DNA from: Gammaproteobacteria bacterium
GTDB lineage: Bacteria > Pseudomonadota > Gammaproteobacteria > GCA-001735895
Length of the DNA stretch: 32,991 nucleotides
Direction: 5' to 3'
Assembly: GCA_024222685.1 (NCBI GenBank)
Contig: JAAEOZ010000165.1
Coordinates: 1 to 32,991 of the forward strand
The position numbers and the translations under genes were made by a program. The notes beneath the pieces are model-generated. The model was not told the DNA's origin. It saw only the letters and a list, made by a program, of their open reading frames with translations, and searched no databases. This document shows, piece after piece, positions 9,677 to 26,692 of the stretch (the stretch's first letter is position 1; the number at the start of each line of letters is the position of its first letter).

Positions 9677-10642
9677 TTAAGACGGCAAAAACTCAACCGG
9701 ATAAGTAACAGTAACCTGCTCAACAGGCTGAGCGCCAAAATCAAATTGTTTAATACGTTTTAGTAATCTGGACTCCAGGGATTTATCATCTAATTCAGAG
9801 GTAACAATAATAATTCTGGTTACTTTTCCTGAAGGTGCTATGGTGATTTCGAGTATCACCTTGCCCTTTATGTTTGGATTCTTACGTCTGGCACGATTGT
9901 ATAAAGCAAATAGCTTGCTTTTGTTTCTGTCGAAAACCAGCGTCACACTCTCCTCACTTCTGACACCGCTTTTGCGTTTAGTAGTGGTTTTGGCCTGTGG
10001 CTGTTTTTTTACCGGCTTCTTCTTAATCAGAGATTGTTCTACAGTGCTGACGGATCTTTCCAGGCTAATGGATTTACTGGTAATTATCGCAACCTGATTA
10101 TCACTAATACCACCGCTTCCCTTGGCTGAACCGGTTAGCAACGATTCATCTACAGAAATACCAGACGATGAGCCTGTACTGGTTGTACTGACCGTACCTC
10201 CGACCATAGCACTAATGTCGTCAGTTTCCATTAAATCAGAAAGTTCGTTACTCAAAGCAAGCAAGCCACTTTCAGCAGCTTTTTCCCTGGCCTTTTTCTG
10301 CGTTTGCGTCAGTGGTTTTTTATCTATTTCGGGTTTTTTTACCTTTTCAACTTTGGACTTGGGTTTAGGTTTGGGTTTGGGCTTTGGCTTGGGCTTTGGT
10401 TTAGAAATCACCTTTTCTATTTTCGGCGCTGCCTTTTTTTTTTCGAGTAGAAAGTTAACAATACGGGGGGGAATTTTTTTCCTGGCCTGTCGCTCTTCTA
10501 CAGGAACATCGATAAACGACACAATAAATGCGCCTGCCAATACCACCATTAACACAAAAACTGTGATGATATTGAAAAACCGATCAGACCTGCTTTCTAG
10601 CGACCAGGAAAGAGCAAGCAAGTCGTAGCTAAGTGTCGACAT
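9677..10642 (-). CDS. TonB-like protein with AgmX/PglI C-terminal domain
   Basis: Predicted periplasm-spanning energy transducer. The 321-residue protein has a short cytoplasmic N-terminus, one membrane segment (about 24-45), a Lys/Pro-rich stalk with seven consecutive KP pairs (81-94), a flexible Ser/Gly/Thr region (about 130-225), and a TonB-like C-terminal domain (about 230-321) containing GKVILEITIAPSGKVTRI and the ending VTVTYPVEF. These C-terminal blocks match the AgmX/PglI family, relatives of TonB found in Myxococcus gliding proteins GltJ and GltG. Its start overlaps the preceding exbD stop (TGATG). It is last in the ExbB/ExbD/ExbD module. The outer-membrane or cell-wall partner is unknown. 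Confidence 0.85.
   Translation of the reverse strand: MSTLSYDLLALSWSLESRSDRFFNIITVFVLMVVLAGAFIVSFIDVPVEERQARKKIPPRIVNFLLEKKKAAPKIEKVISKPKPKPKPKPKPKPKSKVEKVKKPEIDKKPLTQTQKKAREKAAESGLLALSNELSDLMETDDISAMVGGTVSTTSTGSSSGISVDESLLTGSAKGSGGISDNQVAIITSKSISLERSVSTVEQSLIKKKPVKKQPQAKTTTKRKSGVRSEESVTLVFDRNKSKLFALYNRARRKNPNIKGKVILEITIAPSGKVTRIIIVTSELDDKSLESRLLKRIKQFDFGAQPVEQVTVTYPVEFLPS
10361..10402 (-). repeat. in-frame KP hexanucleotide repeat
   Basis: Seven Lys-Pro codon pairs in a row encode the stalk of the TonB-like protein. The 6-base units differ at third positions (AAA/AAG, CCA/CCC/CCT), so the repeat is kept at protein level rather than freshly expanded. KP tracts form stiff extended rods in TonB proteins. 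Confidence 0.85.
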
Positions 10643-11157
10643 CAGGACTTATCTCCCGGCTGTGCTTTCTGTAATGTGGCAAACGCAATACGGGTATAAT
10701 TAACTTCACGACAGGAAGCCAGAATCTTTCGTATTAACTGGTATGGAACCTCCTCATCGCCCATGATTGTTATTGCCCTGGCGTTAGATTCTGCCGGTGG
10801 TGTATTCAACACGCCAGTATTGGTTGATTGAAATTTGAGTTCTTCTATGAGCCCCTTAATAAGTATTTCCTGAGATTCCAGTTCATTTGCAATTGTTGCG
10901 ACTTCCCTGCCCAGCACCAGGATTTTGTTCCGGGTGACGAATATTACCAGCGTTTCCTGTGGAGCCCGGGTTGTAACAGAAGTTGGTAAGCGAATATCTT
11001 TTTTATTTGGCAGTTGTTGAACGTTAGAGGAACTCACCAGCAGGAAAAATACCAGAATAGTAAATATATCCATCAACGATACCAGATTGATGGCCGGCCG
11101 CTTCCGCTGTTCATGGTGCCTTTCCATGCGTCTTGCGCGCCTGGACATTTGCATCAT
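10642..11157 (-). CDS. ExbD/TolR-family protein, with membrane aspartate
   Basis: Small inner-membrane component of a proton-driven ExbB/ExbD motor. The 171-residue protein has a basic N-terminus, a single membrane segment (about 23-42) and a periplasmic domain. The proton-carrying aspartate of ExbD/TolR/MotB proteins is present as D30 in NLVSLMDIFTIL. It is the second of two exbD genes; its ATG overlaps the upstream exbD stop by four bases (ATGA), and its stop overlaps the TonB-like start. The pair is probably made in fixed ratio by coupled translation. Confidence 0.9.
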   Translation of the reverse strand: MMQMSRRARRMERHHEQRKRPAINLVSLMDIFTILVFFLLVSSSNVQQLPNKKDIRLPTSVTTRAPQETLVIFVTRNKILVLGREVATIANELESQEILIKGLIEELKFQSTNTGVLNTPPAESNARAITIMGDEEVPYQLIRKILASCREVNYTRIAFATLQKAQPGDKS

Positions 11158-11699
11158 TGCTCTTGTCCCTGTTCGACAGTCGAATCTGATTGCCTGGTAG
11201 ATTCCCCATTTAAAGGTGGCGCATCCCCCATAGAGATATTTGGAAACAATTCGACAACTTCGAGTTCGGAAACATTAACAATCTCTGCACTACTGACTCG
11301 ATCCATTGCTGCTATGATAGTTTTATAACTAACCTGCTTATCTATCAAGAGCGTAATATTTTTCTCATCTGGGAATCGTGTTTTAATTTCTACCAGTAAA
11401 TTAGTAAAGCTGTTCCAGTCAGTTTGTACGGAATTACGTGGTAAAAACCTGATTCGACCAAAGTTGCTGTCTCTTATTTCAAAACTATCTGGTCTAATCA
11501 CCAACTCTAGTTGAAGCTTAACCTGATCCCCTTCCACGGCTCTGGCATTTTTAGGGGGTAGATTCAACTCAAGAATTGTGATTCGTGAAAACACCGCAGT
11601 TATAAGCAGAAACGGTACCAGGATCACCATTAAATTCAGGAATGCAGTGATATTTAATTCCACCACATCTTGAACCATTTTTCGCCTTACCAGCTTCAT
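11154..11699 (-). CDS. ExbD/TolR-family protein lacking the membrane aspartate
   Basis: A second ExbD-type protein of 181 residues with one membrane segment (about 17-37), a periplasmic domain and a polar Ser/Gln/Glu tail. It begins MKLVRRKMVQDVVELNITAF, like ExbD proteins (ELNxTP), but the aspartate that carries protons is replaced by asparagine (N22 in AFLNLMVIL) and the usual proline of the TP pair is alanine. It likely forms a heterodimer with the next ExbD, which keeps its aspartate. The gene begins 20 bases after exbB. Family assignment is firm; the heterodimer idea is inference. Confidence 0.88.
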   Translation of the reverse strand: MKLVRRKMVQDVVELNITAFLNLMVILVPFLLITAVFSRITILELNLPPKNARAVEGDQVKLQLELVIRPDSFEIRDSNFGRIRFLPRNSVQTDWNSFTNLLVEIKTRFPDEKNITLLIDKQVSYKTIIAAMDRVSSAEIVNVSELEVVELFPNISMGDAPPLNGESTRQSDSTVEQGQEQ

Positions 11700-11719
11700 G
11701 CCGAATTAGTTCCCGTTTT

Positions 11720-12337
11720 TTATTCTTCTGAAATTAAATTAAGACATTTAACAGCGGCCATCTCAATATTATCGACGAGCCGTGACGTTTTAGTGACCAG
11801 AAAAGAATGCATGAGGATAAGGGGAATGGCGGATATCAAACCAAAAGCTGTGGTATTCATCGCCACCGAAATACTTGATGACAACAAGTCTGCCTTCTCC
11901 GCTGGATCAGCACCAGCTACTGCGGTAAACGCCTGTATCAAACCTATTATCGTGCCAAGCAATCCGAGTAAGGTTGCAATATTTGCAAAAGTTGCAAGGT
12001 AATGCGTGCGCTGCTCGAGATCAGGTAAAACCTCCATCATGCCTTCTTCCATGGCGGACTCTATAACAGCTCGTGAAGCTGTATTTTTTTTTCGGGCAAA
12101 ACCATAATTCAACATAGTCGCTAACGGGGTCTTTACTGTTTTGGTTAACTTTATTGCCCTGTTGATATCCTGAGCTTTGAGCATCGGTGTTAGCTGCTGC
12201 CAGACTTTTTTTGTTTTGCTCTGGGTACGCGCAATGTAAATAAATCGCTCTATTGCAATAGATAAACCCAGAGCAAAAATAACAAGAATAGGGTACATAA
12301 AAGTACCACCTGTCTGAAAAAACTTAACGAAGTCCAT
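11720..12337 (-). CDS. ExbB/TolQ/MotA-family proton channel protein
   Basis: Inner-membrane channel subunit that with ExbD converts proton flow into mechanical work. The 205-residue protein has three membrane segments (about 13-35, 115-139 and 157-181). The block ATLLGLLGTIIGLIQAF (121-137) and the small-residue/Thr third helix SISVAMNTTAFGLISAIPL are typical of ExbB/TolQ. GAGGA lies six bases before the ATG. It is separated by 78 bases from the 75-residue gene upstream; I see no strong promoter there, so it is probably in the same transcript as the T6SS genes. The closest functional parallel by composition (one ExbB, two ExbD, one AgmX-domain protein) is AglR of the Myxococcus gliding motor. 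Confidence 0.92.
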   Translation of the reverse strand: MDFVKFFQTGGTFMYPILVIFALGLSIAIERFIYIARTQSKTKKVWQQLTPMLKAQDINRAIKLTKTVKTPLATMLNYGFARKKNTASRAVIESAMEEGMMEVLPDLEQRTHYLATFANIATLLGLLGTIIGLIQAFTAVAGADPAEKADLLSSSISVAMNTTAFGLISAIPLILMHSFLVTKTSRLVDNIEMAAVKCLNLISEE

Positions 12338-12415
12338 GAAACGTCCTCATGTATTATTATTTGCTGGCATGACACCACCTTACTCAACCAACGGGTTGAA
12401 GGTATTGGGAATCGA

Positions 12416-12643
12416 TTATTTGTCAATTTCGGTATTATTAAAAAAGCTGACGGTCTGCATGAACACTGTAGAAAGCTGTTCATTTTCACTTCCCGGCTTA
12501 GCGGGATCCTGGTCGTTAAGCTCCTTATCAATTTTATCGAGTATTACTTTTCGTTGCGCTCGGTATTCATCTATGCCGATATGATTGTGATAGAAATCGT
12601 TAGACAGGTTACGTAGCATCAAAGAATAACTGGCTTCGCTCAT
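12416..12643 (-). CDS. small protein of unknown function, SHOCT-like
   Basis: A 75-residue soluble protein with no signal peptide or membrane segment. The stretch LSNDFYHNHIGIDEYRAQR (13-31) followed by KVILDKIDKEL resembles the short SHOCT helical motif (L..ly..G.it.eEye..k..ll), a small module often found at protein ends or alone; this is a weak resemblance. The gene starts three bases after the kinase stop, so it is almost certainly translated in the same operon, and it lies just before exbB. Its position between the kinase and the proton-driven module makes an adaptor or chaperone role conceivable, but nothing in the sequence proves it. Confidence 0.7.
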   Translation of the reverse strand: MSEASYSLMLRNLSNDFYHNHIGIDEYRAQRKVILDKIDKELNDQDPAKPGSENEQLSTVFMQTVSFFNNTEIDK

Positions 12644-12646
12644 AAA

Positions 12647-15235
12647 TTACTCTTCCATTTCCCTTAAAACTCTAAATCCAGTGTAACTATCGGCCTTACC
12701 ATTATGTTTTTTACCAGTAGCAATTGTACAACTTTCCATCGGTTCACGGAAGGAGCCACCTACCGCCTGTAATGAATTACCGCTACCATATACCCACTCC
12801 TGCACATTACCAACGAAATTCACCAGGCCCCAGGGATTTTGTTTACCAATACTGTATTTGACGAGATTACTTCCTTTTTCAAATCCCCGTGTACTCAAGG
12901 CACAATTTCTATTAGGATCCAGGGTTTTACTCCTGGATCTCATGGCATAAGTCCATTCTATTTTGCTAGGTAAACGATAGCGTTTTCCTGTCTGTTGACT
13001 TAACCATTTGAGATAAGCCCTGGCTGAACTCAGGGTAATATCTGATACAGGCTTCTGGTCATTCTGACTGGATACTGAGCAGGAGGTTGTAGTTAAACAA
13101 TACTGTTTAAACTCACCCACGGTTAGTTCATACTTACCCAGCGCAAACATTTTCAATTTACTGTTCCCTGGAATCACAACCAGTTCCGGTCCATAATTAG
13201 ATTTTTTCAGTTTATCTCTGCAAGTAGCTCGTTTACCTCGTGAGCCGAGTCCGGCCAGTGAAGCATCGCATGGGTCTCTTGATTTAATTTTAATGTTCCT
13301 CAGGACGGATGACTCAAATAGCTTCATGCTATGCGTCTTTGCGGCCCTGGCTCTTTCCGGAAAGGATGTCCCTATTTGCACAATACAATTTGCAAGAGAC
13401 TTTATGACCTTGCTTTCGATGCTTTGAAATCGTACCGAATCTACCTGTTTCAGTTTAACCACAGCAGTTTCAATATTCCGCATATTAAGGCTAGCCTGGC
13501 ATCTCAACTGATTATTCAGGTTTTCCAGTGCTGCCGTAAATTGTTCTTTACTCGCCTTTTGCTGCACCAGTAGTTGTTGTTTCTGATTCTCCTGCTGCTG
13601 CAGTTTCAATTTTCGCGACTGTGCCAGTGCCTTTTTTTTCTTCTGATCTTCGCTCGCCCTGGAAGCCTCCAGTTTTATGCGAGCTTCCTCGTGCTTTTTT
13701 CCAGTTGCGACTAAAGCATTTAGTTCATCGAGTCTTATGTTTTTCGGGCTATATTGCCTTGCACTATCAATTAAATTCTGGGCCTGGATGTATTGTTTGT
13801 TTCTGATCCGATCTTCGATTTGTACTATGTATAGTCCAAAAATTTTATGTTTCTGTTCTTCAAGCCAGGCATCCTTTCCTTTTGTTAATATAGTTAGATC
13901 AGAAATATCTTTCCAGAGCGAGTCCTGCCATCTATCTGAAAAACTGGTATCCCCGAGCAACAACGCAACATCCTCTTTAAGAAAGTCAATTCTAATTTTC
14001 AATTCAAGTTCATTTCTAATATCAAATTCAGAAAACTCCGGAACTTTTGGCTCCTCCTTAAACACCAGAAAATATGTCGTAACCCCAGCCGCGAATAAGA
14101 TTGCAAGGCTAGTTACCAGCCAGTTCGAAGATTTCCGTTTTGGCTTTATCAGATCTTCAAATTCTTTTACCGAAGCTAAGCGATCTTCTCTCCTGAATGC
14201 TATTGCACGTTCAATCGCTTTCCATTGTCGTTTTTTAATATGACCTATACGCTTAGGCTTCAAGCACTGTCGTTCAGCTTCATCGGCTGGGACTTTATTG
14301 TATGGATGTCCACCTGTCAGCATCTCATAAGCGACACAACCTAAGGCATATATGTCATCTCGCACATCTGGCTCTTCACTTTCCAACATTTCAAGGCTGG
14401 CATAAGCGGGCGTTAAGGCGCCCAGGTTGCCCGCATCAAACAATGTCTGGTCATTCGGGTTGTCCTCCAGGTGTTCGACCTGTGCAACCGCGCGAGCAAT
14501 ACCAAAATCAAATACCTTGGCGAGGCCGTTTCCGGTGACAAATACGTTGCCAGGCTTGAAATCGGAATGAATTATTTTCCCTGCGTGGGCGTGTATCAGG
14601 GCGGAAGTCATTCCACGAATAATGTTCCAGGCATCATCGGTGGGCAGTCCTGTCGAACTATATTGAGCTATTAATTCGTCGAGTGGTTCACCATCCAGAT
14701 ACTCCATGGTCATGAATACTGTATCACCATCACGATCAAAATCGTAAACATTAACAATATTCGGATGAGCTACTCTCTGCGACTTACGAGACTCCCTTTG
14801 CAAAGAAATAAATGCCTCCGGGTGAGTTTTGAATTCTTCGCTTAAAACCTTTATTGCGACATATGGGTCTCTATCCTGTGCTTCTACCTTAAGTAAATCT
14901 CGAGCTTTATATACCACCCCCATTCCACCTGCGCCAAGAACTTCCTCCAGGATAAATCGCTCTTTGAGAATGTGAGTTTCTGCGTTTTGTGTGCCGGATA
15001 ATCTACCTGTTGCTACAGTAGGCGGTACTAGTGTTTTATCGGCGGATCCTTTTCGCTGCGGGCTGATACGAGTAGCATCAGAACGGGGCAATTGATTTAC
15101 TGGTGATCCTGCAATTCGTGTTTTTTCTACTGAAGAAGTAGCATCAGATGCTGGGGCTACACGTGTAGCATCCGGTCTCCTGACTTTTTTGCCACTCGGC
15201 TGAATTCTTGTTTTTTGTGGATCAACATCTTTCAT
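12647..15235 (-). CDS. ppkA: T6SS membrane Ser/Thr kinase with periplasmic FGE-like domain (PpkA/TagR-type fusion)
   Basis: Kinase of the T6SS threonine-phosphorylation branch, 862 residues. Order: disordered N-terminus with five Thr-[RL]-[IV] motifs (T9, T24, T39, T55, T68); kinase domain (about 94-362) with glycine loop GAGGMG (101-106), K129 in VAIK, catalytic D225 in HSDFKPGN and DFG at 243-245; membrane segment (about 371-392); charged helical/coiled-coil region (about 510-575); and a C-terminal formylglycine-generating-enzyme-like domain (about 683-858, with GNVQEWV, GGSF and GFRVL). HRD is changed to HSD, making it a non-RD kinase. The GGSF region has one cysteine (C836) where catalytic FGEs use a pair, so it is probably a ligand or scaffold domain. 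In Pseudomonas, PpkA is stimulated by a separate FGE-like protein, TagR. It starts five bases after pppA. Confidence 0.92.
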   Translation of the reverse strand: MKDVDPQKTRIQPSGKKVRRPDATRVAPASDATSSVEKTRIAGSPVNQLPRSDATRISPQRKGSADKTLVPPTVATGRLSGTQNAETHILKERFILEEVLGAGGMGVVYKARDLLKVEAQDRDPYVAIKVLSEEFKTHPEAFISLQRESRKSQRVAHPNIVNVYDFDRDGDTVFMTMEYLDGEPLDELIAQYSSTGLPTDDAWNIIRGMTSALIHAHAGKIIHSDFKPGNVFVTGNGLAKVFDFGIARAVAQVEHLEDNPNDQTLFDAGNLGALTPAYASLEMLESEEPDVRDDIYALGCVAYEMLTGGHPYNKVPADEAERQCLKPKRIGHIKKRQWKAIERAIAFRREDRLASVKEFEDLIKPKRKSSNWLVTSLAILFAAGVTTYFLVFKEEPKVPEFSEFDIRNELELKIRIDFLKEDVALLLGDTSFSDRWQDSLWKDISDLTILTKGKDAWLEEQKHKIFGLYIVQIEDRIRNKQYIQAQNLIDSARQYSPKNIRLDELNALVATGKKHEEARIKLEASRASEDQKKKKALAQSRKLKLQQQENQKQQLLVQQKASKEQFTAALENLNNQLRCQASLNMRNIETAVVKLKQVDSVRFQSIESKVIKSLANCIVQIGTSFPERARAAKTHSMKLFESSVLRNIKIKSRDPCDASLAGLGSRGKRATCRDKLKKSNYGPELVVIPGNSKLKMFALGKYELTVGEFKQYCLTTTSCSVSSQNDQKPVSDITLSSARAYLKWLSQQTGKRYRLPSKIEWTYAMRSRSKTLDPNRNCALSTRGFEKGSNLVKYSIGKQNPWGLVNFVGNVQEWVYGSGNSLQAVGGSFREPMESCTIATGKKHNGKADSYTGFRVLREMEE

Positions 15236-15240
15236 ACCAG

Positions 15241-16020
15241 TTACTTGACATCCTGCTCCGGAGGTCTTGAAAATCGTCCCTGTTCTCCCTTCACCAGAAT
15301 AATCGATATGTTATCGATACCACCAGCGTCGAGGGCCAGTTGCATAAGCGTTTCAATAGCTTCTTCAATAGGCAATGAAATCAGTACCTCGATCAAAACC
15401 TCTTTGTTAACCATATTGTACAAACCATCGCTACATAATAGAAATACATCTCCCAATTGTGCACTGAAAACATTGATATCAACATATAGCTGCCTGTGCG
15501 CTCCCACAGCTCGCGTGATGACATTAGAATCCGGGTGATTTTCGGCCTGTTCAGCAGTCATATAGCCTTGTTGAATCTGTTCCTGAATCTGGCTGTGATC
15601 CCTTGATAACTGCATCAACTTTTTATTACGCAAGCGGTACAATCGTGAATCTCCCGCCCAAAGACAAACGCCAACCCGACCCTTTATCGACAGAGACACA
15701 ACCGTGCTGCCCAGGGTTCTACCATCGAGCATAATATCTGCGTATTCAAGGATACGCTGGTTAACATCGATCAAATTATCTTCGACCTTATTCACCCATT
15801 CGTTTAAGCTCTGAATTGCCTTAATTTGCGTTAGTGAAGCAACCACCATTTGACTGGCTACATTTCCGGCTTCATAGCCACCCATGCCGTCAGCAACGGC
15901 CCACAGGTTTTTATGTGACTCAGATAGAACGGAATCTTCGTTTAAATCTCTGACTAAGCCTACGTTGGTTAAATCTTCCGATCTCCAGATTACAGGGCGT
16001 CTTACCGTGATCTCTTTCAT
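15241..16020 (-). CDS. pppA: PP2C-family protein phosphatase of the T6SS (PppA)
   Basis: Cytoplasmic metal-dependent serine/threonine phosphatase expected to reverse the action of the neighbouring kinase. The 259-residue length is right for a single PP2C domain. Motifs in order: RDLNEDS (24-30), ADGMGGYEAGNVAS (43-56), GSTVV, WAGDSRLYRL, LSRDHS, NVITRAVG, LLCSDGLY and GIDNISIILV. All metal-binding aspartates expected for the family appear present. It lies six bases from tagF and five from the kinase gene, so the three control proteins are probably made together. In Pseudomonas, PppA removes the activating phosphate from Fha1. Confidence 0.94.
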   Translation of the reverse strand: MKEITVRRPVIWRSEDLTNVGLVRDLNEDSVLSESHKNLWAVADGMGGYEAGNVASQMVVASLTQIKAIQSLNEWVNKVEDNLIDVNQRILEYADIMLDGRTLGSTVVSLSIKGRVGVCLWAGDSRLYRLRNKKLMQLSRDHSQIQEQIQQGYMTAEQAENHPDSNVITRAVGAHRQLYVDINVFSAQLGDVFLLCSDGLYNMVNKEVLIEVLISLPIEEAIETLMQLALDAGGIDNISIILVKGEQGRFSRPPEQDVK

Positions 16021-16026
16021 CAGTTG

Positions 16027-16752
16027 TCAGACATTTAAATTAAAAGGGATTTTCCAGTTTCTGGATTGCCATTGCCCATCAATCATCGCGGTTAAATTAC
16101 CCGCTGGGGGCAATCCTCGACTACAAAATATTGACGGTGCAATCAGACTGGAACCGGTAGTTTGCCACAGGCTAAAACTCGTCAGGCTGGAACTCAGGGA
16201 GGCATCAAGCATATACGACACACTGTTTGATAAAGCACTTTCATCGTCAGTCGCCAACTCAGTAATGAATCCGCCTGTTTCACCATAGTGAGAAGTTGGT
16301 AGATATTGCGAATCGAGGTCTAACTCAAGTTGTTCTACTCTTTCTATTAAATCATCAACATCGATTTCTTCATCAAGTGCCAGTAAACTCAATGACTCTA
16401 AATCATGGAACCACTGTTGTTGCGAAAGCAGAAAATTAACCGCTGAAGTACCACCTGTTAAGGACATTAAAATACTAAATGGAAAGTACCTGCCGACTCT
16501 ATCAACGCTAGGTAAAACTAAACCACCCCAGCCATTATCGTCAATAACACCGCTAGAAAGAACGAAACGCCATATGGGGCTTGTCAGATAAATATCGAGC
16601 CAGTCATCACCAGTTTGTTCTTTGCTCACAGAAATATAAAACTGTAGCCACTCATCCCATAATTGAGCAAAATCACTAGATAGATTTCTTTTGAGAAAAT
16701 CACCATAACCCGGTAGTTTTCCATAAAGACTAACCGCGTTTCCATGAGTCAT
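16027..16752 (-). CDS. tagF: T6SS-associated protein TagF
   Basis: TagF (ImpM) family, a cytoplasmic post-translational repressor of T6SS firing in Pseudomonas and Agrobacterium. The 241-residue protein begins with the family signature LYGKLPGYGDFLKRNL (9-24), followed by WDEWL, SPIWRF, GLVLPSVDRVGRYFPF and WFHDLE, which are typical. In some bacteria TagF is fused to PppA; here the two are separate neighbours. The start at 16752 abuts the tssM stop directly. Confidence 0.93.
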   Translation of the reverse strand: MTHGNAVSLYGKLPGYGDFLKRNLSSDFAQLWDEWLQFYISVSKEQTGDDWLDIYLTSPIWRFVLSSGVIDDNGWGGLVLPSVDRVGRYFPFSILMSLTGGTSAVNFLLSQQQWFHDLESLSLLALDEEIDVDDLIERVEQLELDLDSQYLPTSHYGETGGFITELATDDESALSNSVSYMLDASLSSSLTSFSLWQTTGSSLIAPSIFCSRGLPPAGNLTAMIDGQWQSRNWKIPFNLNV

Positions 16753-19700
16753 TTATATATTCTCCGGGCACCGGAATGACGCAAGCAAATTCTGACCAAA
16801 AGGATTTTTAATGCTTCTCGCCTTAATTAAATACTTCATAACATGTTGAATGCCTGTTTCATTAAAAGCATACTCGACGAGATATGTGCTCGATTGTTGT
16901 GTCTTTGAAATTTTTGATCGATCCTGTAATTTCAACCAGGCCCAGGGACCTTCATATGAATTTTCATGACGATCACCATCAAGATCTTCGAAAACTAGCC
17001 TTACCCTGTTATTACCTTCTTCAGCAGACCAGTTTAAGTCTTTCCAGAACTTTGGTCCGTGGCTATATTTAAATCGCTGTTCTCCTACGTCAAGCCAGAA
17101 TCGAGCATCATTTTTGCTCAGACGATAAGGTTTTAGTTGAAACGAAATACCTGGAATTTCGGGGCTTTGTCGAAAATATATGCTTTTTATGTTTTGTGCG
17201 GTTTTAATATGCTTCAGTGTTTTCTTGTTAAGGCCGAGAGAACGGCGATCCACTACCCTGTTTTTCCAGGTTTTTGACGAGTGGATAAACGGTTTAACAT
17301 ATTTTATATAGAAACTATCCATTTTGCCGGCAGGCTTAAAAAAATCACTAAAATCCAGTAGTGCAAGCTCACTCCTGGATTTTTTCGACAATGGATAGCG
17401 ACCAGCCAGTGCTTCCCGATAAAAGCCATAAACCTGATTATTCCATTCGCTTTTAACATGCCGCCTTGCAGACGCAAGTATGACTTTCCAGCTCTGATCA
17501 GCCAATGTTGATAGCCAGCGCTTTACAGGATCTGGGCGATTACTGGAAAATTTTGCCAAACTCACAATGGCATTAGCTGAGCCCTGCTTGTATCTTGCTA
17601 ATGCTATTTCGAACGCTTTTTTAGCAGGATCAGGTGATAAATTAACCTCACCGATAAATTCTTTTAACTGCAATACTTTTTCAATAACTGCATTCACCGG
17701 CGCCGGGTTATTTTTAGTTTCGCGAAGCAATTTATTTATCTTCTTAAAATGCTGGTCGACTTTAGTGCCTTTTATTTGCCCTGCGAGTAATCCAGTCACT
17801 TTGGCACCGGTTTCACTGGTTTGATTATCATCCAGAGTCTGTAAAATCTGAGTGGACAACTGTGTATTTTCGGCAGTCACCTGCAGAATCGACTGTAGCG
17901 GTGAGTACACCGGATCAACAAATCGAGTTAGAGTCTCTGCAGCCTGATTAAGCGATTTAAAATCGGCGACTTCGAGTGATTTCAGAGCAGCAGACCAGTG
18001 TTTAATAAACTCTGCAAAATAAAGTGCTTCGACTTTTTCGCTGACTTCCTCGAGGTCATCCTTGACGAAATCAACCTTCTCACTGTCGTCGTCTGACAGC
18101 AACCAGCTTTCATTTACGATATCTGAGATAAGCGGGGAACTCGAAGAAAAATCTATATTGTCATAGCCTTCACGGCTAAACATATAGGGGACTAATAGAG
18201 CATTCTCGACAGATTCATTGATTCGATAGCTTTCACGTACGGACTCACCAAACAGGTTCAGCAGGTTGATTTTCTGTCGGTTTTCAGCCCTGTTACGTAT
18301 ACGACTATATATCCTCTGTTGAACTGGTACTCTTAATAATAAAGACCGGGTTTGTTTCACCAGTCTGCTATTAAGCCTGGATGGTTGCGGGTCAAGTTTA
18401 AGTAAGGCATTTAAGTGCTTTTCGAGTGCCTGTCTATGACTTGCCTGGCCGCTAAGAGATACTTTCCAGTCATCCCGGAACCATTCAAACACCAGCTCCC
18501 TGTCCAGATGCTGTATTTTATTGAGCATAAGATAAGTACGAAAATTATGGTATAGATCACCACCTTTATGACCTTTTACTACCCTTAACTCCAGATAACG
18601 AACCAGCCGGGGCAGTAAGTTATTACGTAGTTGGCTATGATAGGCATTGTTAGCAGCACTATCGACATTTGTGTCATAGAGGCCGAGACCGTTCAACCAG
18701 GGATGCCTGTTCTGGTCGTAAACAATACTGGCCCTTTCAATAGCATCCAGTGATGGAATTACCGACACCAGGTCACGATTCGTGCCTGCGAGCTGAGAAT
18801 TCTCTATCTCAAAAGTGTCGATGTAGGAATTGACTTCACTCATGTATTCATTGTGCCGATTTAAACTACTAATCCACACCGACAACATCACCGCTACTGA
18901 TACAAAAAGGAATAGATAAGCCGAGCGCCGTGACCATCTGAGCAGTATTTCGTACTTTCTATTGAGGCCGACCAGTTCCGCCTCGGGAAAAATAACTTTG
19001 CGGAACAGATTGCCAAGAAAAAAGCTTTTACCCTGTGCCTGTTGTGTATGGGATTGCTGGTCAAATCCGAAACTGGCTGATACGGCACTCATCATCCGGT
19101 CAATCGGCGTTCCATCCTGAGTACCGCTGGTAAAATATATACCCCGCAAATAAGGCTGATACTCGTAGCGATTTTTGACAAAGGTCTGTCTAACAAAACT
19201 ATCAATGATCTCTTTAGCGTTATCGAATTGCTTTGGAAAGCTCTGTATCAATGCCCTTCTCTTGACGTCCCGTTCCTGATGCATTCTCCCCAGTTCGCGA
19301 GAATATAGACGATTTATCAGGCCATTAAATTCCTGCTGGAAATATTCGAAATCGGGGCTTTGTGATGAGTCAGCGGCGTTCGGTAAGCTAATCCCCCAGA
19401 CCTGTTCACGATCCTCCTTTGACAAGTCCTCAAAAAATTCGGAAAATCCCGAGATCAAATCAGATTTGGTTAATACCAGATAAATTGGAAAACGAATTTC
19501 GAGTTTTTGCATCAGTTCATCGATGCGGGTCCGAATAATTTGAGCATGTTGCTCTCGCTCCTGTTCAGATTGAAACAGCAAATCCTGGATACTGATAGCA
19601 ACGAGAACGCCATTAACAGGCCTTCGACGTCGATTTTTCCTCAGCAATGATAGAAATGCTTCCCAGGCACTGCTATCAATAACTCGATGACTATCCTGTG

Positions 19701-20286
19701 TCGTGTAACGCCCAGCCGTATCGATAAGTACTGCGTCGTTAGTAAACCACCAGTCACAATTGCGAGTACCGCCTATGCCCTGTAGTGAAGCTTTACCGAA
19801 CTGTTCGGCCAGTGGAAAATCAAGACTGGAATTGACCAGTGCAGTAGTCTTGCCAGATCCAGGAGGGCCAATGATGATATACCAGGGAAGTTCATAAAGT
19901 GCACGGGATCGATTTTTACCTTTAAATTTCAATCTGGATAAAGTAGCCAGGGCGTCTGAAAATCGCTGATTGAGCAGTTGATACTCTTCGCTAGTACGAT
20001 CATCAGTAGCATTATCGGATTCCATCTCCTGATTTGTCTCGAGATCACTTACCAGATCTTTGTTACTTTTTTTAGCTGTTAACTGCAGACGTAGATTGTT
20101 TAAACCCCAAAGTACCAGCAATATGATAATCACTACTAATCGTGAAAATTCACTGGCCAGCGGCGCGGTGTTATTTTCACCAAACTTAACAACAGGGCCG
20201 ACAAACCAGATAATAATCGATAAGGCAATGAGCCCTATCACTGATATGACTATCCTGTTGGTAAAAAAATCGATAATTTTCTTCAT
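16753..20286 (-). CDS. tssM: T6SS inner-membrane protein TssM (IcmF)
   Basis: Large core of the T6SS membrane complex, 1177 residues. Two N-terminal membrane segments (about 11-32 and 47-62) and a third near 450-470 frame a cytoplasmic NTPase-like domain. Walker A is intact (GPPGSGKTT, 140-148), with VLIDTAGRY at 187-194 and LTKSDLISGF as guanine-type specificity block. The large C-terminal part is periplasmic and would contact TssJ. Some TssM proteins lack Walker A, so its presence here suggests ATP binding may matter, as shown for Agrobacterium TssM. It follows tssL by 58 bases. Confidence 0.97.
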   Translation of the reverse strand: MKKIIDFFTNRIVISVIGLIALSIIIWFVGPVVKFGENNTAPLASEFSRLVVIIILLVLWGLNNLRLQLTAKKSNKDLVSDLETNQEMESDNATDDRTSEEYQLLNQRFSDALATLSRLKFKGKNRSRALYELPWYIIIGPPGSGKTTALVNSSLDFPLAEQFGKASLQGIGGTRNCDWWFTNDAVLIDTAGRYTTQDSHRVIDSSAWEAFLSLLRKNRRRRPVNGVLVAISIQDLLFQSEQEREQHAQIIRTRIDELMQKLEIRFPIYLVLTKSDLISGFSEFFEDLSKEDREQVWGISLPNAADSSQSPDFEYFQQEFNGLINRLYSRELGRMHQERDVKRRALIQSFPKQFDNAKEIIDSFVRQTFVKNRYEYQPYLRGIYFTSGTQDGTPIDRMMSAVSASFGFDQQSHTQQAQGKSFFLGNLFRKVIFPEAELVGLNRKYEILLRWSRRSAYLFLFVSVAVMLSVWISSLNRHNEYMSEVNSYIDTFEIENSQLAGTNRDLVSVIPSLDAIERASIVYDQNRHPWLNGLGLYDTNVDSAANNAYHSQLRNNLLPRLVRYLELRVVKGHKGGDLYHNFRTYLMLNKIQHLDRELVFEWFRDDWKVSLSGQASHRQALEKHLNALLKLDPQPSRLNSRLVKQTRSLLLRVPVQQRIYSRIRNRAENRQKINLLNLFGESVRESYRINESVENALLVPYMFSREGYDNIDFSSSSPLISDIVNESWLLSDDDSEKVDFVKDDLEEVSEKVEALYFAEFIKHWSAALKSLEVADFKSLNQAAETLTRFVDPVYSPLQSILQVTAENTQLSTQILQTLDDNQTSETGAKVTGLLAGQIKGTKVDQHFKKINKLLRETKNNPAPVNAVIEKVLQLKEFIGEVNLSPDPAKKAFEIALARYKQGSANAIVSLAKFSSNRPDPVKRWLSTLADQSWKVILASARRHVKSEWNNQVYGFYREALAGRYPLSKKSRSELALLDFSDFFKPAGKMDSFYIKYVKPFIHSSKTWKNRVVDRRSLGLNKKTLKHIKTAQNIKSIYFRQSPEIPGISFQLKPYRLSKNDARFWLDVGEQRFKYSHGPKFWKDLNWSAEEGNNRVRLVFEDLDGDRHENSYEGPWAWLKLQDRSKISKTQQSSTYLVEYAFNETGIQHVMKYLIKARSIKNPFGQNLLASFRCPENI

Positions 20287-20344: not shown

Positions 20345-21271
20345 CTAATTCCGATTCGCCGGTTTTAATTCAACAATCTGTTGAAGTTTCGCAACCACCG
20401 GGGTTGAGGTTTCAAACAACCAGAACCTCAACCCGGAATAGCTCAACACAAGAACAACACCCAGAACACTGGCAACAACCCAGAACGGAATGTAACTAAT
20501 CATAGATTTTCGGACTCTTCCGAGCCCCTGCCAGTTCGGTGACAGGGATCTTTCATATTCGCCTCTGGTCATTCTAATACAACGAAATAACTCATCACGC
20601 AATTGCTCAATCGCATCGCGACCTCTTTGTAAAACTCGAAATTTGCCCTCAAAGCCAAGACTCAGAAAAACATACAATAATTCGAGAATATCAATATTCT
20701 CTGCCGGGTATTCCTTCATTCGATCCAGAATCTGAAAATACTTTTCCCCTCCGGCAGTTTCGTTATGGAAAATACTGAGCAGCGTTCTTTGCGACCACCC
20801 ACTCTCCGAACCCCAGGGGGTATTCAGGACTGCTTCGTCAAGTACTGTGCAAACACAGTACCGTGCAGACAGAATAACTTCCGGTTTGAACTGTAATGTC
20901 TTCAGGTTTTTTTCAAACTGCCGGATTTCACTGGTGAGGCGTTGATGCAATCCACCGACATCTGGATGAGATACCGACTGTCTTGTTTTCTGAAAAACAG
21001 CAATCAGTGTCGACGCTGCATCTATTATGGAGTTCTCTCCGGTGAATATTCCGCTATCAACAGGAGTTGGGCTAACTGATGGTTGGTATTGTGCTTCCTG
21101 CTGCGGTTGATAACGTGTAGAAGCAGATTGAGCTACAGGTTTCTCTATACCGGCATTTGAAGGCGGGGGTGACTTAACACTCCTGCCACCGGGAGCGGGC
21201 CTGATAACAGTTCTGTCAGGATTATTGTTCGGCTGCCTGAAAACCGTTTTGTCGTGCTTATCCGATGGCAT
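20345..21271 (-). CDS. tssL: T6SS inner-membrane protein TssL (DotU/IcmH)
   Basis: TssL joins TssM and TssJ in the trans-envelope complex. The 308-residue protein has a disordered N-terminus (about 1-75), the cytoplasmic DotU hook domain (about 78-250, with ARYCVCTVLDEAVLNTPWG and LYVFLSLGFEGKFRV) and one C-terminal membrane segment (about 258-280) with a short periplasmic tail. No OmpA-type peptidoglycan-binding domain is attached. The N-terminus holds DKTVFRQP (T9) and DRTVIRPAPGGR (T21), which resemble the kinase's own Thr motifs; Agrobacterium TssL is phosphorylated near its N-terminus and then bound by Fha. AGGAGA lies five bases before the ATG. Confidence 0.96.
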   Translation of the reverse strand: MPSDKHDKTVFRQPNNNPDRTVIRPAPGGRSVKSPPPSNAGIEKPVAQSASTRYQPQQEAQYQPSVSPTPVDSGIFTGENSIIDAASTLIAVFQKTRQSVSHPDVGGLHQRLTSEIRQFEKNLKTLQFKPEVILSARYCVCTVLDEAVLNTPWGSESGWSQRTLLSIFHNETAGGEKYFQILDRMKEYPAENIDILELLYVFLSLGFEGKFRVLQRGRDAIEQLRDELFRCIRMTRGEYERSLSPNWQGLGRVRKSMISYIPFWVVASVLGVVLVLSYSGLRFWLFETSTPVVAKLQQIVELKPANRN

Positions 21272-21315: not shown

Positions 21316-22650
21316 CTACTGTCGTATCGCCCAAAATTCGAGTACCAAACCTGGGAAGTCGCCGCCAACATGTATAGCAAACCCCCCTGAATGCCTTAAT
21401 TCATTCCAGAATTCACTTTGTGGTTCAAGCTGAAAATAACTAAATCCACTATGAAATGGTATTTGACGTGGTGCCACTGGCAGTGGTTTCATTCCTATTC
21501 CCGGCAGGGCTGCGTTAACCAGTTGTCTAATTCGTTCAACCGGACCGATCCGCACCTGCGCTGGTAAATGATTTCTAATGCTCTCTTCTGGAATATCGGC
21601 CTTTGCAGCGAGAACAAATGTGGCAGAACCGATTAACGAACGATCCACAATTTCGGCAACCCGGATACCATATTTCTTCTCAACCAGTTGCATACTGATA
21701 GCAGATTGTTCATGCACAGTACTAAAACAGCTTCTCAATGCAGTGATTACCGGGTCAAAGCTGGAATTGAGATCATCATGCTTATAGCCGTCAAAAACAG
21801 GACTGCGCTTCTCACCGCTGACAAATGTTGATAACTCACCAACCATTTGAACAATTTGCAGATACATATCGACCGGATGTATACCCTCAATGTGGGCCAT
21901 GTGACGGATTGCCGGCTCAAGTCGGTTAATGAGCTGGAGTAGCATATAGTCCGCTACTTCTGCGGTACCACCTCGACTGGCGTCAGCCAGCCTGCCCGCA
22001 ATAGCTTCACCACGGCTATGTAGCAAGCTGATTATCTCAGTTAGATATCCCGACAACCGGGGTGATTTAGCACAATCCAGGCAGCCTGGAATATAGTTCT
22101 CATCTAGTAGTATCTTTTTATCTTCGCGAACTTCAGCAACTCGGAGAAGCCCGACATTGATATAGCCGCTTAAGTCTTCCGACCCCGGTATTAACTTCAG
22201 ATTAAGTCGCCCGACATCGATTTTAATAGTCTCACTGGAATCACTTGATACATCTCTAATTTCCTGCTCCTGCTGTACAAATCTGGCCAGACTCTGGCTG
22301 CTACCACTGCTTGCTATATCCCTTGCGCCAGCTCGTCTGACTGGCAGACACAGGTAAATAATTTCATTCTGTACATTATCAGCCAGCTCAATTACAGCAG
22401 GCGGTTCATCAATTGTAGGAAACTCAAATGGCGTTCCGTCGGGAAATACGCCTTTTCCCTTAACAGCAGATATTTTTCCGAGACCAAGTAATTGCTGGTC
22501 GATTTCGATTTCAAGAATCCCCCATCGATATGCACCAGATGACGAATACCTGGCTTCAATCAATGCCTCTATATACCTTTCCTGCTGTTGAAAATGCTGA
22601 GGGTTCAAAAACATCCCCTCCGACCAAACCACTTTATTATTCAATGACAT
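21316..22650 (-). CDS. tssK: T6SS baseplate protein TssK
   Basis: TssK is the trimeric adaptor that docks the baseplate on the TssJLM complex. The 444-residue length is standard. It opens MSLNNKVVWSEGMFLNPQHF with QQQERY, the family hallmark, and ends with QSEFWNELRHSGGFAIHVGGDFPGL, also typical. It lies 44 bases before tssL and 50 bases after tssJ in the order tssJ-tssK-tssL-tssM, which is common. Its other baseplate partners (TssE, TssF, TssG) are not encoded in the window. Confidence 0.97.
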   Translation of the reverse strand: MSLNNKVVWSEGMFLNPQHFQQQERYIEALIEARYSSSGAYRWGILEIEIDQQLLGLGKISAVKGKGVFPDGTPFEFPTIDEPPAVIELADNVQNEIIYLCLPVRRAGARDIASSGSSQSLARFVQQEQEIRDVSSDSSETIKIDVGRLNLKLIPGSEDLSGYINVGLLRVAEVREDKKILLDENYIPGCLDCAKSPRLSGYLTEIISLLHSRGEAIAGRLADASRGGTAEVADYMLLQLINRLEPAIRHMAHIEGIHPVDMYLQIVQMVGELSTFVSGEKRSPVFDGYKHDDLNSSFDPVITALRSCFSTVHEQSAISMQLVEKKYGIRVAEIVDRSLIGSATFVLAAKADIPEESIRNHLPAQVRIGPVERIRQLVNAALPGIGMKPLPVAPRQIPFHSGFSYFQLEPQSEFWNELRHSGGFAIHVGGDFPGLVLEFWAIRQ

Positions 22651-22700: not shown

Positions 22701-23210
22701 TCAGTTTGCGGATTGTTCGAGTAACATCTGATTTCCGGAAATTCTTATAACCGCAGTATTTATAAACACGTTATTAGAAACCACCGGAATTATTAATTTA
22801 TACTTTGAGTCCTTAAATTCAAGAAACTCTGCATACAGTGCAATATATTGTGTTTTCTTATCGAGTACGAACTTTTCAACCCTGTTTTCTCCCGGTTTTA
22901 AACGTTTTAAACGATGCACTTCACCAACCAGGTCGGCACCGATTGTTTTAATATCCTGTTCATATAGGTCGATAAAATCAGCCTTTTGCATCATTTTGGA
23001 ATTTTTCAGTTCGTACATGCGCACAAACAATGGTGAGCCGATGCCGAGTTCGTCAGGATTACTGTCTGCATCCACGACAAATTCAATACTGACATCCGTA
23101 TCAAGCCCGAGGTATCCCCCCACGACACTTTTATTGCCCGAAGCACAGGAGCATAGCCAAAGACTCATCAGTGAGATACCCAGCAGTTTCATTATTCTAT
23201 ACGATCTCAT
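22701..23210 (-). CDS. tssJ: T6SS outer-membrane lipoprotein TssJ
   Basis: Outer-membrane-anchored lipoprotein of the T6SS membrane complex, 169 residues. A type II signal peptide ends in LWLCSC, with C22 as the probable lipidated residue. The mature part has the TssJ pattern of beta strands: SPLFVRMYELKNSKMMQKADFIDLYEQD and IALYAEF are recognisable. The ATG at 23210 overlaps the tagH stop by four bases (ATGA), favouring this start, although M7 (23192) would also give a signal peptide. Confidence 0.93.
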   Translation of the reverse strand: MRSYRIMKLLGISLMSLWLCSCASGNKSVVGGYLGLDTDVSIEFVVDADSNPDELGIGSPLFVRMYELKNSKMMQKADFIDLYEQDIKTIGADLVGEVHRLKRLKPGENRVEKFVLDKKTQYIALYAEFLEFKDSKYKLIIPVVSNNVFINTAVIRISGNQMLLEQSAN

Positions 23211-24715
23211 GTCTGATCCGGTTCTCCTGGAGGTGGATTTTTATTACTAGCTCTAGATTTTTTTGATATTGCCAATTTTTGCAATTGATCCTCATAGGCA
23301 CGCACAAACCCGTCACCAAACAAATACTGGAACGATTTGTCGATATCACCAACGAGTTCTTCGTAATAACTGGCAAAAGCTTCCCAGTTTTTAGCTTTCT
23401 GGCTGCCGGGCAGAATTCCGCCACGGCTTTGTTTACTAAAGCGCTCCTCCAGTACAATTGGATCAAATCGCTCTATTACACCTTTGAAAGCTTCTCGAAT
23501 TCCAGCCAGAATGGCCACCTGATGCTCTGCCACACTGTCAAAACCCTCGTTTACGGCATCCAGGGGTTGTTTGAAAGCATTGCCGGATTTCAAAAACATG
23601 TTTTCCAGTGCATCGTCGACATTCGCTGAAAATTTAAGTGGATTATTCTCGACAGGTTGAATAGTGGTAACATTCATACGAAACTCATTTTTAATCGAAC
23701 TTCGTGAACTTAAAACCTGCATCAATCCACTGATCATCGCCCGCATAACCTCACCTGCTTTGCGACTGGTCTGTTCGATTTCAGCCCTCGATAAATTCCG
23801 ATTGTGAAGACCAAGTGCACGGATGAATTCAACATCATAACTTTCAGCAGTACCATCGGAATCATGCATATTTTGCTGGCTTTTCAGCTTTTTAATCTGT
23901 GCCAGTAATTTCTGATTTACAATTTCAAGCGCTCGTTCTCTTGCGCCAGGCCCTTTACTTTCTGTTCTAGCTTCAGAAACCTGCTTATCTGGTTTGGCCT
24001 GCGACGAAGCCAGTAATTCTTCTGCTTCGACATCCCAGTCGTCAGGTATGACATTTGAGAGGCTATTTCCAGGACCTGGGCTGGATTTCGGCCAGTCCAT
24101 CTGTTGATTGAGTGGATCTACCGTATCTGACTGGGTTGTGGAGGGGAAGGGATTATTTCCAGATTCCGGTATTTCATTATTGAATAACTGATCACTTCCA
24201 CCTCGGGCCTTATCCAGAGCCGCCAGCGGGTCTGAATCCGAAGGCGCTGACGAAAAAAGTGGATCACTCACAGCTGCAAGACCAGCTTCGAATGGGCTAT
24301 CTGCAAAATTATCGAGCGACCCTCCCAGATTCGGAGATAATTCATCTAATCCACTCGAAAAAGGATCACTGGCAAGTCCCAGGTTTTGTGATTGCGATTG
24401 CATGCTAATAGCAAACTCATAGTCCCCGATTATAAAGCGATCATCATTATGTACAGGTAATCTGCTGCCTTTACCCATTGGATCAACAGATCCATTATAG
24501 AAAGTACCATTAGTACTGCGATCAATAATATAGTATTGGCCATTTTCAAAGCATATTTCACAATGTAAAGAAGAAAGATAAAGCTCAGGGTCTTCCAGCA
24601 CCCATGTATTTTCCTCCCCCCTCCCTATACTTCCACCAGATTCATCAAATGACATTGACGGTATCGAAGCGGCATTCGAGTCCGGAGCTTTTAGCAGGGT
24701 TATAAGTATTGACAT
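23207..24715 (-). CDS. tagH: T6SS FHA-domain protein TagH (Fha)
   Basis: Phosphothreonine-binding scaffold that links kinase signalling to T6SS assembly. The 502-residue protein has an N-terminal FHA domain (about 5-105) with GR (31-32), SSLHCEI (48-54) and STNGTFYNG (67-75), the residues that bind phosphothreonine. A disordered acidic linker (about 110-240) contains repeated DPF/DPL-type motifs. The C-terminal domain (about 275-480) has VEFIRALGL and GILPGSQKAKNWEAFASYYEEL, typical of T6SS Fha proteins. It is the first gene of the long leftward gene set, divergent from tssA. Confidence 0.94.
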   Translation of the reverse strand: MSILITLLKAPDSNAASIPSMSFDESGGSIGRGEENTWVLEDPELYLSSLHCEICFENGQYYIIDRSTNGTFYNGSVDPMGKGSRLPVHNDDRFIIGDYEFAISMQSQSQNLGLASDPFSSGLDELSPNLGGSLDNFADSPFEAGLAAVSDPLFSSAPSDSDPLAALDKARGGSDQLFNNEIPESGNNPFPSTTQSDTVDPLNQQMDWPKSSPGPGNSLSNVIPDDWDVEAEELLASSQAKPDKQVSEARTESKGPGARERALEIVNQKLLAQIKKLKSQQNMHDSDGTAESYDVEFIRALGLHNRNLSRAEIEQTSRKAGEVMRAMISGLMQVLSSRSSIKNEFRMNVTTIQPVENNPLKFSANVDDALENMFLKSGNAFKQPLDAVNEGFDSVAEHQVAILAGIREAFKGVIERFDPIVLEERFSKQSRGGILPGSQKAKNWEAFASYYEELVGDIDKSFQYLFGDGFVRAYEDQLQKLAISKKSRASNKNPPPGEPDQT

Positions 24716-25032: not shown

Positions 25033-26124
25033 ATGACTTCTGAAGAAATTATACCACTGGAACAATTGCTTGCACCGATAGCGGAAGATAACCCAGTAGG
25101 ACGTGACATCAGAGATGACACTGGGCAGGATTCCATCTATCAGGCGATAAAAGATGCCCGTGTAGCTGCTCGTTCTGCCGAACGCAATAATATGTTCGAC
25201 AATAACACTAGCGAAGCAGATTCTCACTGGCGCAGGATTCTGGACCTGGCTCCCGATATTTTACTTACTCACACAAAGGATCTGGAAGTCGCTTGCTGGT
25301 TTACCGAAGCATTAATTCGTCGGCACGGTTTCGAGGGCTTACGTGATGGCTTTAAACTGATAGAGGGGTTGATCGAATCATACTGGGACGAGCTTTATCC
25401 TTTACCTGATGAAGACGGTATCGAAACCCGCGTTGCTCCGTTAACTGGCTTAAATGGCGAGGGAGCGGAAGGTGTCCTGATCACACCGATTCGTAACGTG
25501 AATATAACTGAAGGCAGCGAGCCAGGACCTTTCAATTACTGGAAATACCAGCAGGTACTCGAAATCGAAAAAATTATCGATGACGAGACTAAAAACGAGA
25601 AAGCGTCCAAACTCGGTTTCAGCAAAGAGGACGTTGATCGTGCTGTGGCTGAATCAGCCGAGTCATTCTATATAGATATTAATGATGATCTTGGTGAAGC
25701 GATAGAAATATATCGACGGATAAGTAGCTTACTTGATAATCACTGTGGTGCCAATGAATCCCCACCGACCAGTAATATCATTAATATGTTGGAGGCCTGC
25801 CTTGGTACTATCAAACATATCGCTAAATACAAAATTCCAGCAAGCCAGGTTGATGTTGAAGAAAACCCTGAGGAGCCGGTCTCAGATGCATCACAGTTTG
25901 AGTCAGCTGAAGTCCGCACACGCGAAGACGCTTTTATGCAACTTCTGGAAATTTCCCGGTTTTTCAGAAAGACTGAACCACATTCCCCAATTTCCTACAT
26001 GCTGGAACGCGTCGTTAAATGGGGCGACCTGCCTCTTGAGTCACTAATCAGAGAATTGATTCCAGATTCATCGGCAAGGGATTATTATGGGTCATTAACA
26101 GGCATTAGCACTGACGATGACTAA
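25033..26124 (+). CDS. tssA: T6SS protein TssA
   Basis: TssA caps or primes the growing sheath and tube during T6SS assembly. The 363-residue protein has the ImpA N-terminal domain (about 8-180, with LLAPIAEDNPVGRDIRDD, DLEVACWFTEALIRRHGFEGL and YWDELYPLPDEDG) and a C-terminal segment RTREDAFMQLLEISRFFRKTEPHSP typical of the short TssA class. It has no extended VasJ-like region. It starts the divergent tssA-tssB-tssC unit behind a good promoter and ends 52 bases before tssB. Confidence 0.96.
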   Translation: MTSEEIIPLEQLLAPIAEDNPVGRDIRDDTGQDSIYQAIKDARVAARSAERNNMFDNNTSEADSHWRRILDLAPDILLTHTKDLEVACWFTEALIRRHGFEGLRDGFKLIEGLIESYWDELYPLPDEDGIETRVAPLTGLNGEGAEGVLITPIRNVNITEGSEPGPFNYWKYQQVLEIEKIIDDETKNEKASKLGFSKEDVDRAVAESAESFYIDINDDLGEAIEIYRRISSLLDNHCGANESPPTSNIINMLEACLGTIKHIAKYKIPASQVDVEENPEEPVSDASQFESAEVRTREDAFMQLLEISRFFRKTEPHSPISYMLERVVKWGDLPLESLIRELIPDSSARDYYGSLTGISTDDD

Positions 26125-26176
26125 CCCAGTACTAATTTAATATAATATATGAACTTTATTTACGGAGAGTAGAAAC

Positions 26177-26692
26177 ATGGCAGACAGTATTCACGACAAA
26201 TTAAAACGCGTCAGAAAGCCACGCGTTCACATAACCTACGATGTTGATACAAACGGAGCTGTTCAGGAGAAAGAATTGCCATTCGTAATGGGGGTTATGG
26301 GTGACTATTCCGGTGATAATACTGAAAGTAAAAAACCCTTGAAAGACCGGAAGTTTTCGCAAGTCGATCGCGATAATTTCAATGAAGTTATGAATAATAT
26401 TGAACCTCAAATCGATATCAAGGTTGATAACACACTTGAAAATGATGGTAGTGAAATGTCTGTCAACCTTGATTTTAAAAATTTGGAAGATTTTGAACCT
26501 CAAAATATTGTAGGCAAGGTCGAACCACTTAAAAAGTTAATGGAAACAAGAAATAAACTGCGTGATTTACTAACCAAGGCGGATCGTTCAGAAGATCTTG
26601 AAAATTTACTCGAAGAGGTTCTTAGCAGTACCGATTCTCTTGTAGCGCTACAGGGCGAACTCGGAACCGATGAAGACAAAGGTGATAAATAA
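26177..26692 (+). CDS. tssB: T6SS contractile sheath small subunit TssB
   Basis: Small sheath protein (VipA/IglA) that pairs with TssC. The 171-residue protein begins [20 protein letters not shown], with the family blocks [14 protein letters not shown] and [18 protein letters not shown], and ends in an acidic tail. GGAGAG lies seven bases before the ATG, a strong ribosome binding site consistent with a highly made structural protein. Its stop overlaps the tssC start by one base (TAATG), so the two sheath halves are translated together. Confidence 0.98.

Follow-up and report, generated by a model that had tools for sequence, protein, structure and literature searches.

Motors of the ExbB-ExbD family, in which ExbB pentamers work with ExbD dimers, harness the flow of protons to act on an arm resembling TonB. 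Myxococcus xanthus has such a set in its gliding motor (AglRQS-Glt) and in its sporulation complex (Nfs), with an ExbB protein, two ExbD proteins and the TonB-like GltG, and the motor is reused for different tasks (PMC3858216, PMC9389320). A related core complex (Group B: aglR, aglQ, aglS, gltC, gltD, gltE, gltG and one extra gene) was described by Luciano et al. in 2011, who left its role in gammaproteobacteria open (PMC3169522). Here we analyse a stretch of 32,991 nucleotides from a Gammaproteobacteria bacterium (assembly GCA_024222685.1, contig JAAEOZ010000165.1, positions 1-32,991 of the forward strand), referred to below as the window, in which an exbB-exbD-exbD-agmX motor module lies behind the kinase gene ppkA of a type VI secretion system (T6SS). 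The association of this motor with the T6SS is well supported, and the module may represent a further task for the same kind of machine.

All parts of the system come from known families. It holds the same eight kinds of gene that Luciano et al. assigned to the core complex; however, they are split here over two T6SS operons, whereas ordinary core copies with enough flanking sequence form one cluster, and PMC3169522 mentions no T6SS link (‘type VI’ occurs 0 times). The ExbB-ExbD-TonB and TolQ-TolR-TolA systems belong to the same superfamilies and share the TonB-type C-terminal domain, but have one ExbD where this locus has two, and the block contains neither a receptor nor TolB/Pal. The equivalog cut-offs for ExbB, TolQ, ExbD, TolR and TonB are all missed (tolQ 65.5 against 221 bits, exbB 41.9 against 206, tolR 31 against 127). 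Near PpkA and Fha, other bacteria encode periplasmic or outer-membrane partners that set T6SS activity or position: TagQRST in Pseudomonas aeruginosa, RtkS in Serratia, which governs PpkA input (PMC6082577), and TssW in Acidovorax, on which T6SS location depends (PMC12607579). No proton-driven motor is among them, and their families are unrelated to the module genes. Searches of the open literature, which do not extend to subscription papers, gave no report of a T6SS combined with AgmX or GltD, or of such a set split over two T6SS operons.

Conserved position of the motor module

The original prediction for this locus, made from the window's letters alone, had named linkage in related genomes as a check. 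The survey was run, and exbB occupies the slot after ppkA in 16 of 16 genomes with this T6SS subclade, drawn from at least seven families. Fifteen of these carry the junction on one contig and one (G034) on two contig ends that fit; for another (G262) only the start of exbB is seen in the slot. AgmX is contiguous in the slot in 13 genomes. A scan with one genome per species had yielded five first relatives, and the four with enough flank share the order tssM-tagF-pppA-ppkA-small ORF-exbB-exbD-exbD-agmX. In G227 the order is ppkA-exbB-exbD-exbD-agmX-tssA-tssB-tssC, placing the module inside the T6SS cluster. AgmX identity between subclade genomes is only ~40-60% despite the constant gene order, and chance neighbourhood is rejected by these surveys, given the same order in 16 genomes.

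Three samples delimit the association. Among 41 genomes from the order of the window genome, TagF occurs in five; the same five carry the T6-type AgmX (E below 1e-110), which is found in 0 of the 36 others, and 27 further genomes have a weaker AgmX relative only. An even draw of 370 genomes from the class contained 51 with TagF. All nine of those that belong to this T6SS subclade carry the start of the module behind ppkA, and AgmX lies on the TagF contig in 0 of the other 42. Finally, in 28 genomes from another order, a subclade TssM (>1,700 bits) was found in five; the module is in the slot, on the same contig and strand, in 5/5 of these and absent from the slot in 23/23 of the remainder.

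The window contains a T6SS with the threonine phosphorylation pathway, in that tssJKLM, tagF, PpkA, PppA and the FHA protein are all present. Its features are as follows.

9677..10642, minus strand: AgmX/GltG-like TonB-type transmission protein (NF033768, the AgmX/PglI tail, 68.6 bits, cut-off 40; TonB_C 2e-6)
10642..11157, minus strand: exbD2, ExbD/TolR-family subunit with a transmembrane Asp, INLVSLMDIFTIL (PF02472 7e-18)
11154..11699, minus strand: exbD1, ExbD/TolR-family subunit with Asn in place of the transmembrane Asp, LNITAFLNLMVIL (PF02472 1.3e-15)
11720..12337, minus strand: exbB (AglR/TolQ-like), ion-channel subunit with three transmembrane segments (PF01618, MotA_ExbB, 1.5e-27)
12416..12643, minus strand: orf75, small soluble protein of 75 amino acids with a SHOCT-like N-terminal motif (hhalign match; no Pfam match)
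12647..15235, minus strand: ppkA, Ser/Thr kinase with a transmembrane segment at ~373-391, a periplasmic helical stretch and an FGE-like domain (Pkinase 7e-37, FGE-sulfatase 6e-13, hydropathy)
15241..16020, minus strand: pppA, PP2C phosphatase, Stp1-like (PF13672, NF033484)
16027..16752, minus strand: tagF, T6SS repressor family (PF09867, TIGR03373 135 bits)
16753..20286, minus strand: tssM (IcmF; TIGR03348 1113 bits)
20345..21271, minus strand: tssL (DotU), ~310 amino acids, sole Pfam match the DotU domain (PF09850)
21316..22650, minus strand: tssK (PF05936)
22701..23210, minus strand: tssJ, outer-membrane lipoprotein (PF12790)
23207..24715, minus strand: tagH/Fha, FHA protein of the threonine phosphorylation pathway (PF20232, PF00498, TIGR03354 318 bits)
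25033..28182, plus strand: tssA, tssB and tssC, divergent from the minus-strand arm (PF06812, PF05591, PF05943)

The seven genes from pppA to the AgmX gene lie on the minus strand where the original prediction had placed them, and the tight packing it described is borne out, with gaps of 5, 3, 78 and 20 nucleotides followed by overlaps of 4 and 1. It had also seen no strong internal promoter or terminator; in agreement, promoter-like sites between 9400 and 16100 number 10 against 12.9 expected by chance from shuffled sequences, and in neither of the two junctions it had singled out, ppkA-orf75 and orf75-exbB, did a sequence scan find a terminator-like site. From this layout, pppA through the AgmX gene is a predicted single tight operon following tssM-tagF.

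One side observation concerns ExbB genes nearby. Just downstream of the T6SS module, on the opposite strand, G111 carries a separate, unrelated ExbB gene, standing between genes that resemble, by size and signal, those for TonB and an outer-membrane receptor (region L018:14752-18887, not scanned).

Ancestry and the second half of the core complex

Nearly all other AgmX loci examined with enough flank have gltC-, gltD- and gltE-like tetratricopeptide repeat (TPR) genes and a small gene before exbB-exbD-exbD-agmX, the exception being G421. Such loci correspond to the core complex of PMC3169522, and the module is its motor half. In a tree of the concatenated motor proteins (ExbB, ExbD1, ExbD2 and AgmX), the T6SS-linked motors form one clade (support 99/97; 97/97 in a later rerun with more genomes) nested in the core family, whose closest members are the core complexes L023/L024 of G105 and G227 (100/100). 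The likeness to AglRQS-Glt noted in the original prediction therefore holds and extends, with the module nested in the Glt core complex and, as described below, the GltC/D/E half in the other T6SS operon.

The T6SS itself has a matching history. In a TssM-TssK-TssL tree, with support from a quick method (SH-aLRT), the module-bearing T6SSs are one clade (100), with T6SSs that have the same kinase type but no module as sister (97). The motor and TssM-TssK-TssL trees have 8 of 9 splits in common, where 0.2 would be expected for random trees. G038 groups with another family in both, which looks like a joint transfer of motor and T6SS. Because the T6SS-linked motors form a single nested clade, we infer that the ancestor of this T6SS acquired the motor once and that selection has since kept it for a long time. 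A second, independent recruitment was at one point considered for G262, whose exbB grouped with another core lineage (AU p 0.016). This was dropped, since the exbB in its T6SS slot (L047:1-417) and its own core exbB (L083:11054-11470) have an identical last stretch, both at contig ends, and differ in their 5' parts; gene conversion or an assembly join would explain the odd grouping.

Although gltCDE at first seemed to be missing from the T6SS-linked copy, a GltD search found the TPR half, gltC-gltD-gltE plus the small gene, on the second T6SS arm, behind tssH/clpV, in eight genomes. In G262 and G111 the right arm reads tssA-tssB-tssC-tssC2-tssE-tssF-tssG-tssH-gltC-gltD-gltE-small gene. In the window genome a separate contig (C188, locus L079) carries tssC2-E-F-G-H-gltC-gltD-gltE-small gene, with 11 nucleotides between tssH and gltC and overlapping genes beyond gltC; the T6SS of this genome thus stands at two places, each with its own half of the Glt set, and a second, ordinary gltC/D/E set with a small gene lies on C108. 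The TPR half is also immediately behind tssH in G227, G158 and G407, and follows a few unassigned genes after tssH in G167 and G358. Contigs break near tssH in G022, G208 and G034.

The seven best GltD matches in the 370 genomes (770-2067 bits) all come from subclade genomes and lie on the T6SS contig or, in the window genome, beside tssH on C188. Below them come two sister core copies (634 and 598 bits), then matches of 512 bits and lower. In the GltD tree the T6SS copies group together (88/65) and join the sister core copies L023/L024 at 100/100, with an internal order that matches the motor and T6SS trees. By eye, GltD and GltE start with lipobox-like signals, and the small protein has a signal peptide.

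Further features of this arm were recorded. The small exported protein (L079:13214-13462 and homologues) has a nearly constant C-terminal motif, LVLHSLFGDLFDPV, specific to the T6SS copy. Family f128 has a conserved gene block before gltC (L085:13734-19652, L087:7217-12320, L105:4525-7677), lying between tssH and gltC in two genomes; the genes are of unknown kind, and the four in L085 have no Pfam match. This T6SS clade also has two genes for the sheath large subunit, tssC and a diverged tssC2 (L079:782-2272, TIGR03355 460 bits, and at the corresponding place in other right arms), which adjoin each other except where the locus has split.

Motor subunits and the junction behind the kinase

AgmX has one transmembrane segment (~25-43), a Lys/Pro-rich linker and a TonB-CTD fold at its C-terminus. 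Its AlphaFold model shows a confident transmembrane helix and C-terminal block (pLDDT 91-96) joined by a disordered linker, and the best PDB matches of the C-terminal domain are TonB C-terminal domains. In profile comparison ExbB matched TolQ and ExbB structures. PpkA was aligned across 15 homologues; its full-length fold was a poor model (mean pLDDT 57.7) and was left out of the interpretation. The motor genes are under purifying selection, with dN/dS of 0.02-0.10 where dS is finite. In the window (11720-12337) and in all homologues, TM3 of ExbB is ISVAMNTTAFGL, with the two Thr kept; this family has Val at the place of a Glu (E176) in Escherichia coli ExbB.

The two ExbD proteins differ. The transmembrane Asp of ExbD2 is present in 35/35 homologues, whereas ExbD1 has Asn at that position in all 34 homologues having the column. 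Since ordinary core copies show the same Asn/Asp pair, the pair is a feature of the gammaproteobacterial family rather than of the T6SS version. It sets the motor apart from that of M. xanthus, where AglQ and AglS are both predicted to carry a transmembrane Asp (review, PMC9389320) and the AglQ substitution D28N is reported to abolish conductance (PMC3858216). A further difference is that AgmX misses the GltG equivalog NF033760 (49.5 bits, cut-off 650).

At the junction, sister T6SSs have behind the kinase a protein of 200-214 amino acids with a SHOCT-like N-terminus, one transmembrane segment and a periplasmic tail. The orf75 product is homologous to the N-terminus only of this protein (hhalign 93.3%, E 2.8e-7) and has no transmembrane segment, so that the membrane-periplasm piece is missing where the motor begins. 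It is kept in 14 of the 16 subclade genomes and was not found in the other two, G227 and G158. This architecture would fit, without proving, a replaced kinase input. In another T6SS, that of G196 (L040:8763-10364), the protein encoded behind the kinase joins a SHOCT-like N-terminus and transmembrane segment straight to an FGE domain.

Proposed role and alternatives

Taken together, we think it probable that the locus encodes a T6SS-dedicated, proton-driven, envelope-spanning complex of the Glt type, which would couple the T6SS mechanically, so as to position, anchor or trigger it or to drive its kinase, and for which the kinase pathway would be the switch. In mechanistic terms, we infer that the parts assemble as one complex, that it is driven by protons, that it contacts TssJLM or PpkA, and that it serves positioning or activation. 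ExbB (AglR-like) and the ExbD1/ExbD2 pair would form a proton-driven motor of the 5:2 type in the inner membrane. The AgmX arm would relay work across the periplasm to GltC, GltD, GltE and the small exported protein, so reaching the outer membrane, where lipoproteins and TPR proteins would lie beside TssJLM. In this way the T6SS membrane complex could be coupled mechanically to the wall and outer membrane and thereby be moved, anchored or oriented, while the state of the envelope would be fed to PpkA via its periplasmic domain and PpkA/PppA/Fha/TagF would act as the switch. Mechanical coupling with a kinase switch is favoured because the PpkA partners of Serratia and Acidovorax decide whether and where the T6SS assembles. 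More tentatively, the T6SS may possess a gliding-type envelope motor of its own, powered by protons and with just one protonatable ExbD, that drives its placement, anchoring or triggering; the weapon would then draw on proton motive force as well as ATP.

The main rival, which we regard as rather unlikely, is that the module is a sensor of envelope stress or contact that switches PpkA on in place of TagQRST or RtkS, with proton flow serving only to probe the tension of the outer membrane or wall. The module does stand directly after ppkA, where sister loci encode the SHOCT-transmembrane-periplasmic protein of which orf75 retains just the soluble N-terminus, and the kinase carries an FGE-like periplasmic domain. 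PpkA input is moreover known to differ among species (PMC6082577), and neither a TagST ABC transporter nor a TagQ lipoprotein lies beside ppkA in the window, the rest of the genome not having been searched. However, a motor and TPR proteins worth two operons would be much for a sensor, and the sister T6SSs retain the same kinase-FGE type without the module.

The original prediction had offered as its alternative a neighbouring but independent motor, which would have its own role and be merely inherited or transferred with the T6SS. This is now unlikely, given the same slot in 16/16 genomes, the interior position in G227, and the presence of both halves on both T6SS arms, both kept after the locus split in the window genome. 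Several observations nonetheless weigh in its favour or against a dedicated complex. In G421 an orphan exbB-exbD-exbD-agmX (L096:2136-4749), behind monooxygenase-like genes, is sister to all T6SS-linked motors; that genome has no T6SS of this clade and no gltCDE beside the motor, which is thus able to occur in the absence of the weapon. Four genomes (G432, G431, G038 and G020) have the TPR half away from tssH, and a search of G414 (99% complete), where other sequence follows tssH, did not find it. Many subclade genomes also hold free-standing, ordinary core complexes, with which TPR partners might be shared, and support for the T6SS clade of GltD is only moderate (88/65). Co-transfer of motor and T6SS is also visible, in G038.

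We give little credence to a third possibility, a wall anchor, in which the periplasmic domains of the ExbDs would clamp peptidoglycan in the manner of TolR, serving a T6SS in whose TssL no wall-binding domain is apparent. The ExbD subunits are indeed of the ExbD/TolR family, and TssL, with DotU as its only Pfam domain, is short where several module-less T6SSs have a TssL of 440-470 amino acids. But the sister T6SSs L027, L044 and L050 also have a short TssL and no module, and ExbB, the conserved Asp, AgmX and the TPR half would be superfluous for a mere anchor. Lastly, TonB-like uptake, energising an outer-membrane receptor that serves the T6SS, e.g. in metal scavenging by secreted metal-binding proteins (T6SS-linked metal uptake is reportedly the subject of a review), is highly improbable in spite of the TonB-type C-terminal domain of AgmX, as the conserved block has no TonB-dependent receptor, the four motor genes cluster with Glt core complexes, and the ExbB and TonB cut-offs are missed by far.

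If the T6SS is indeed driven by its own proton-powered motor, the Glt core complex would gain a first assigned job other than gliding or sporulation. The complex has stood without a function in non-gliding gammaproteobacteria since 2011 (PMC3169522), and a T6SS that absorbed the whole Glt set gives a readable output (foci, Hcp release, killing), by which core-complex function becomes testable. The invariant Asn/Asp ExbD pair offers a natural asymmetric motor for study. With confirmation, a machine whose descriptions otherwise centre on sheath contraction and ClpV would gain a mechanical accessory driven by protons, and the PpkA pathway an input or positioning device of a new kind.

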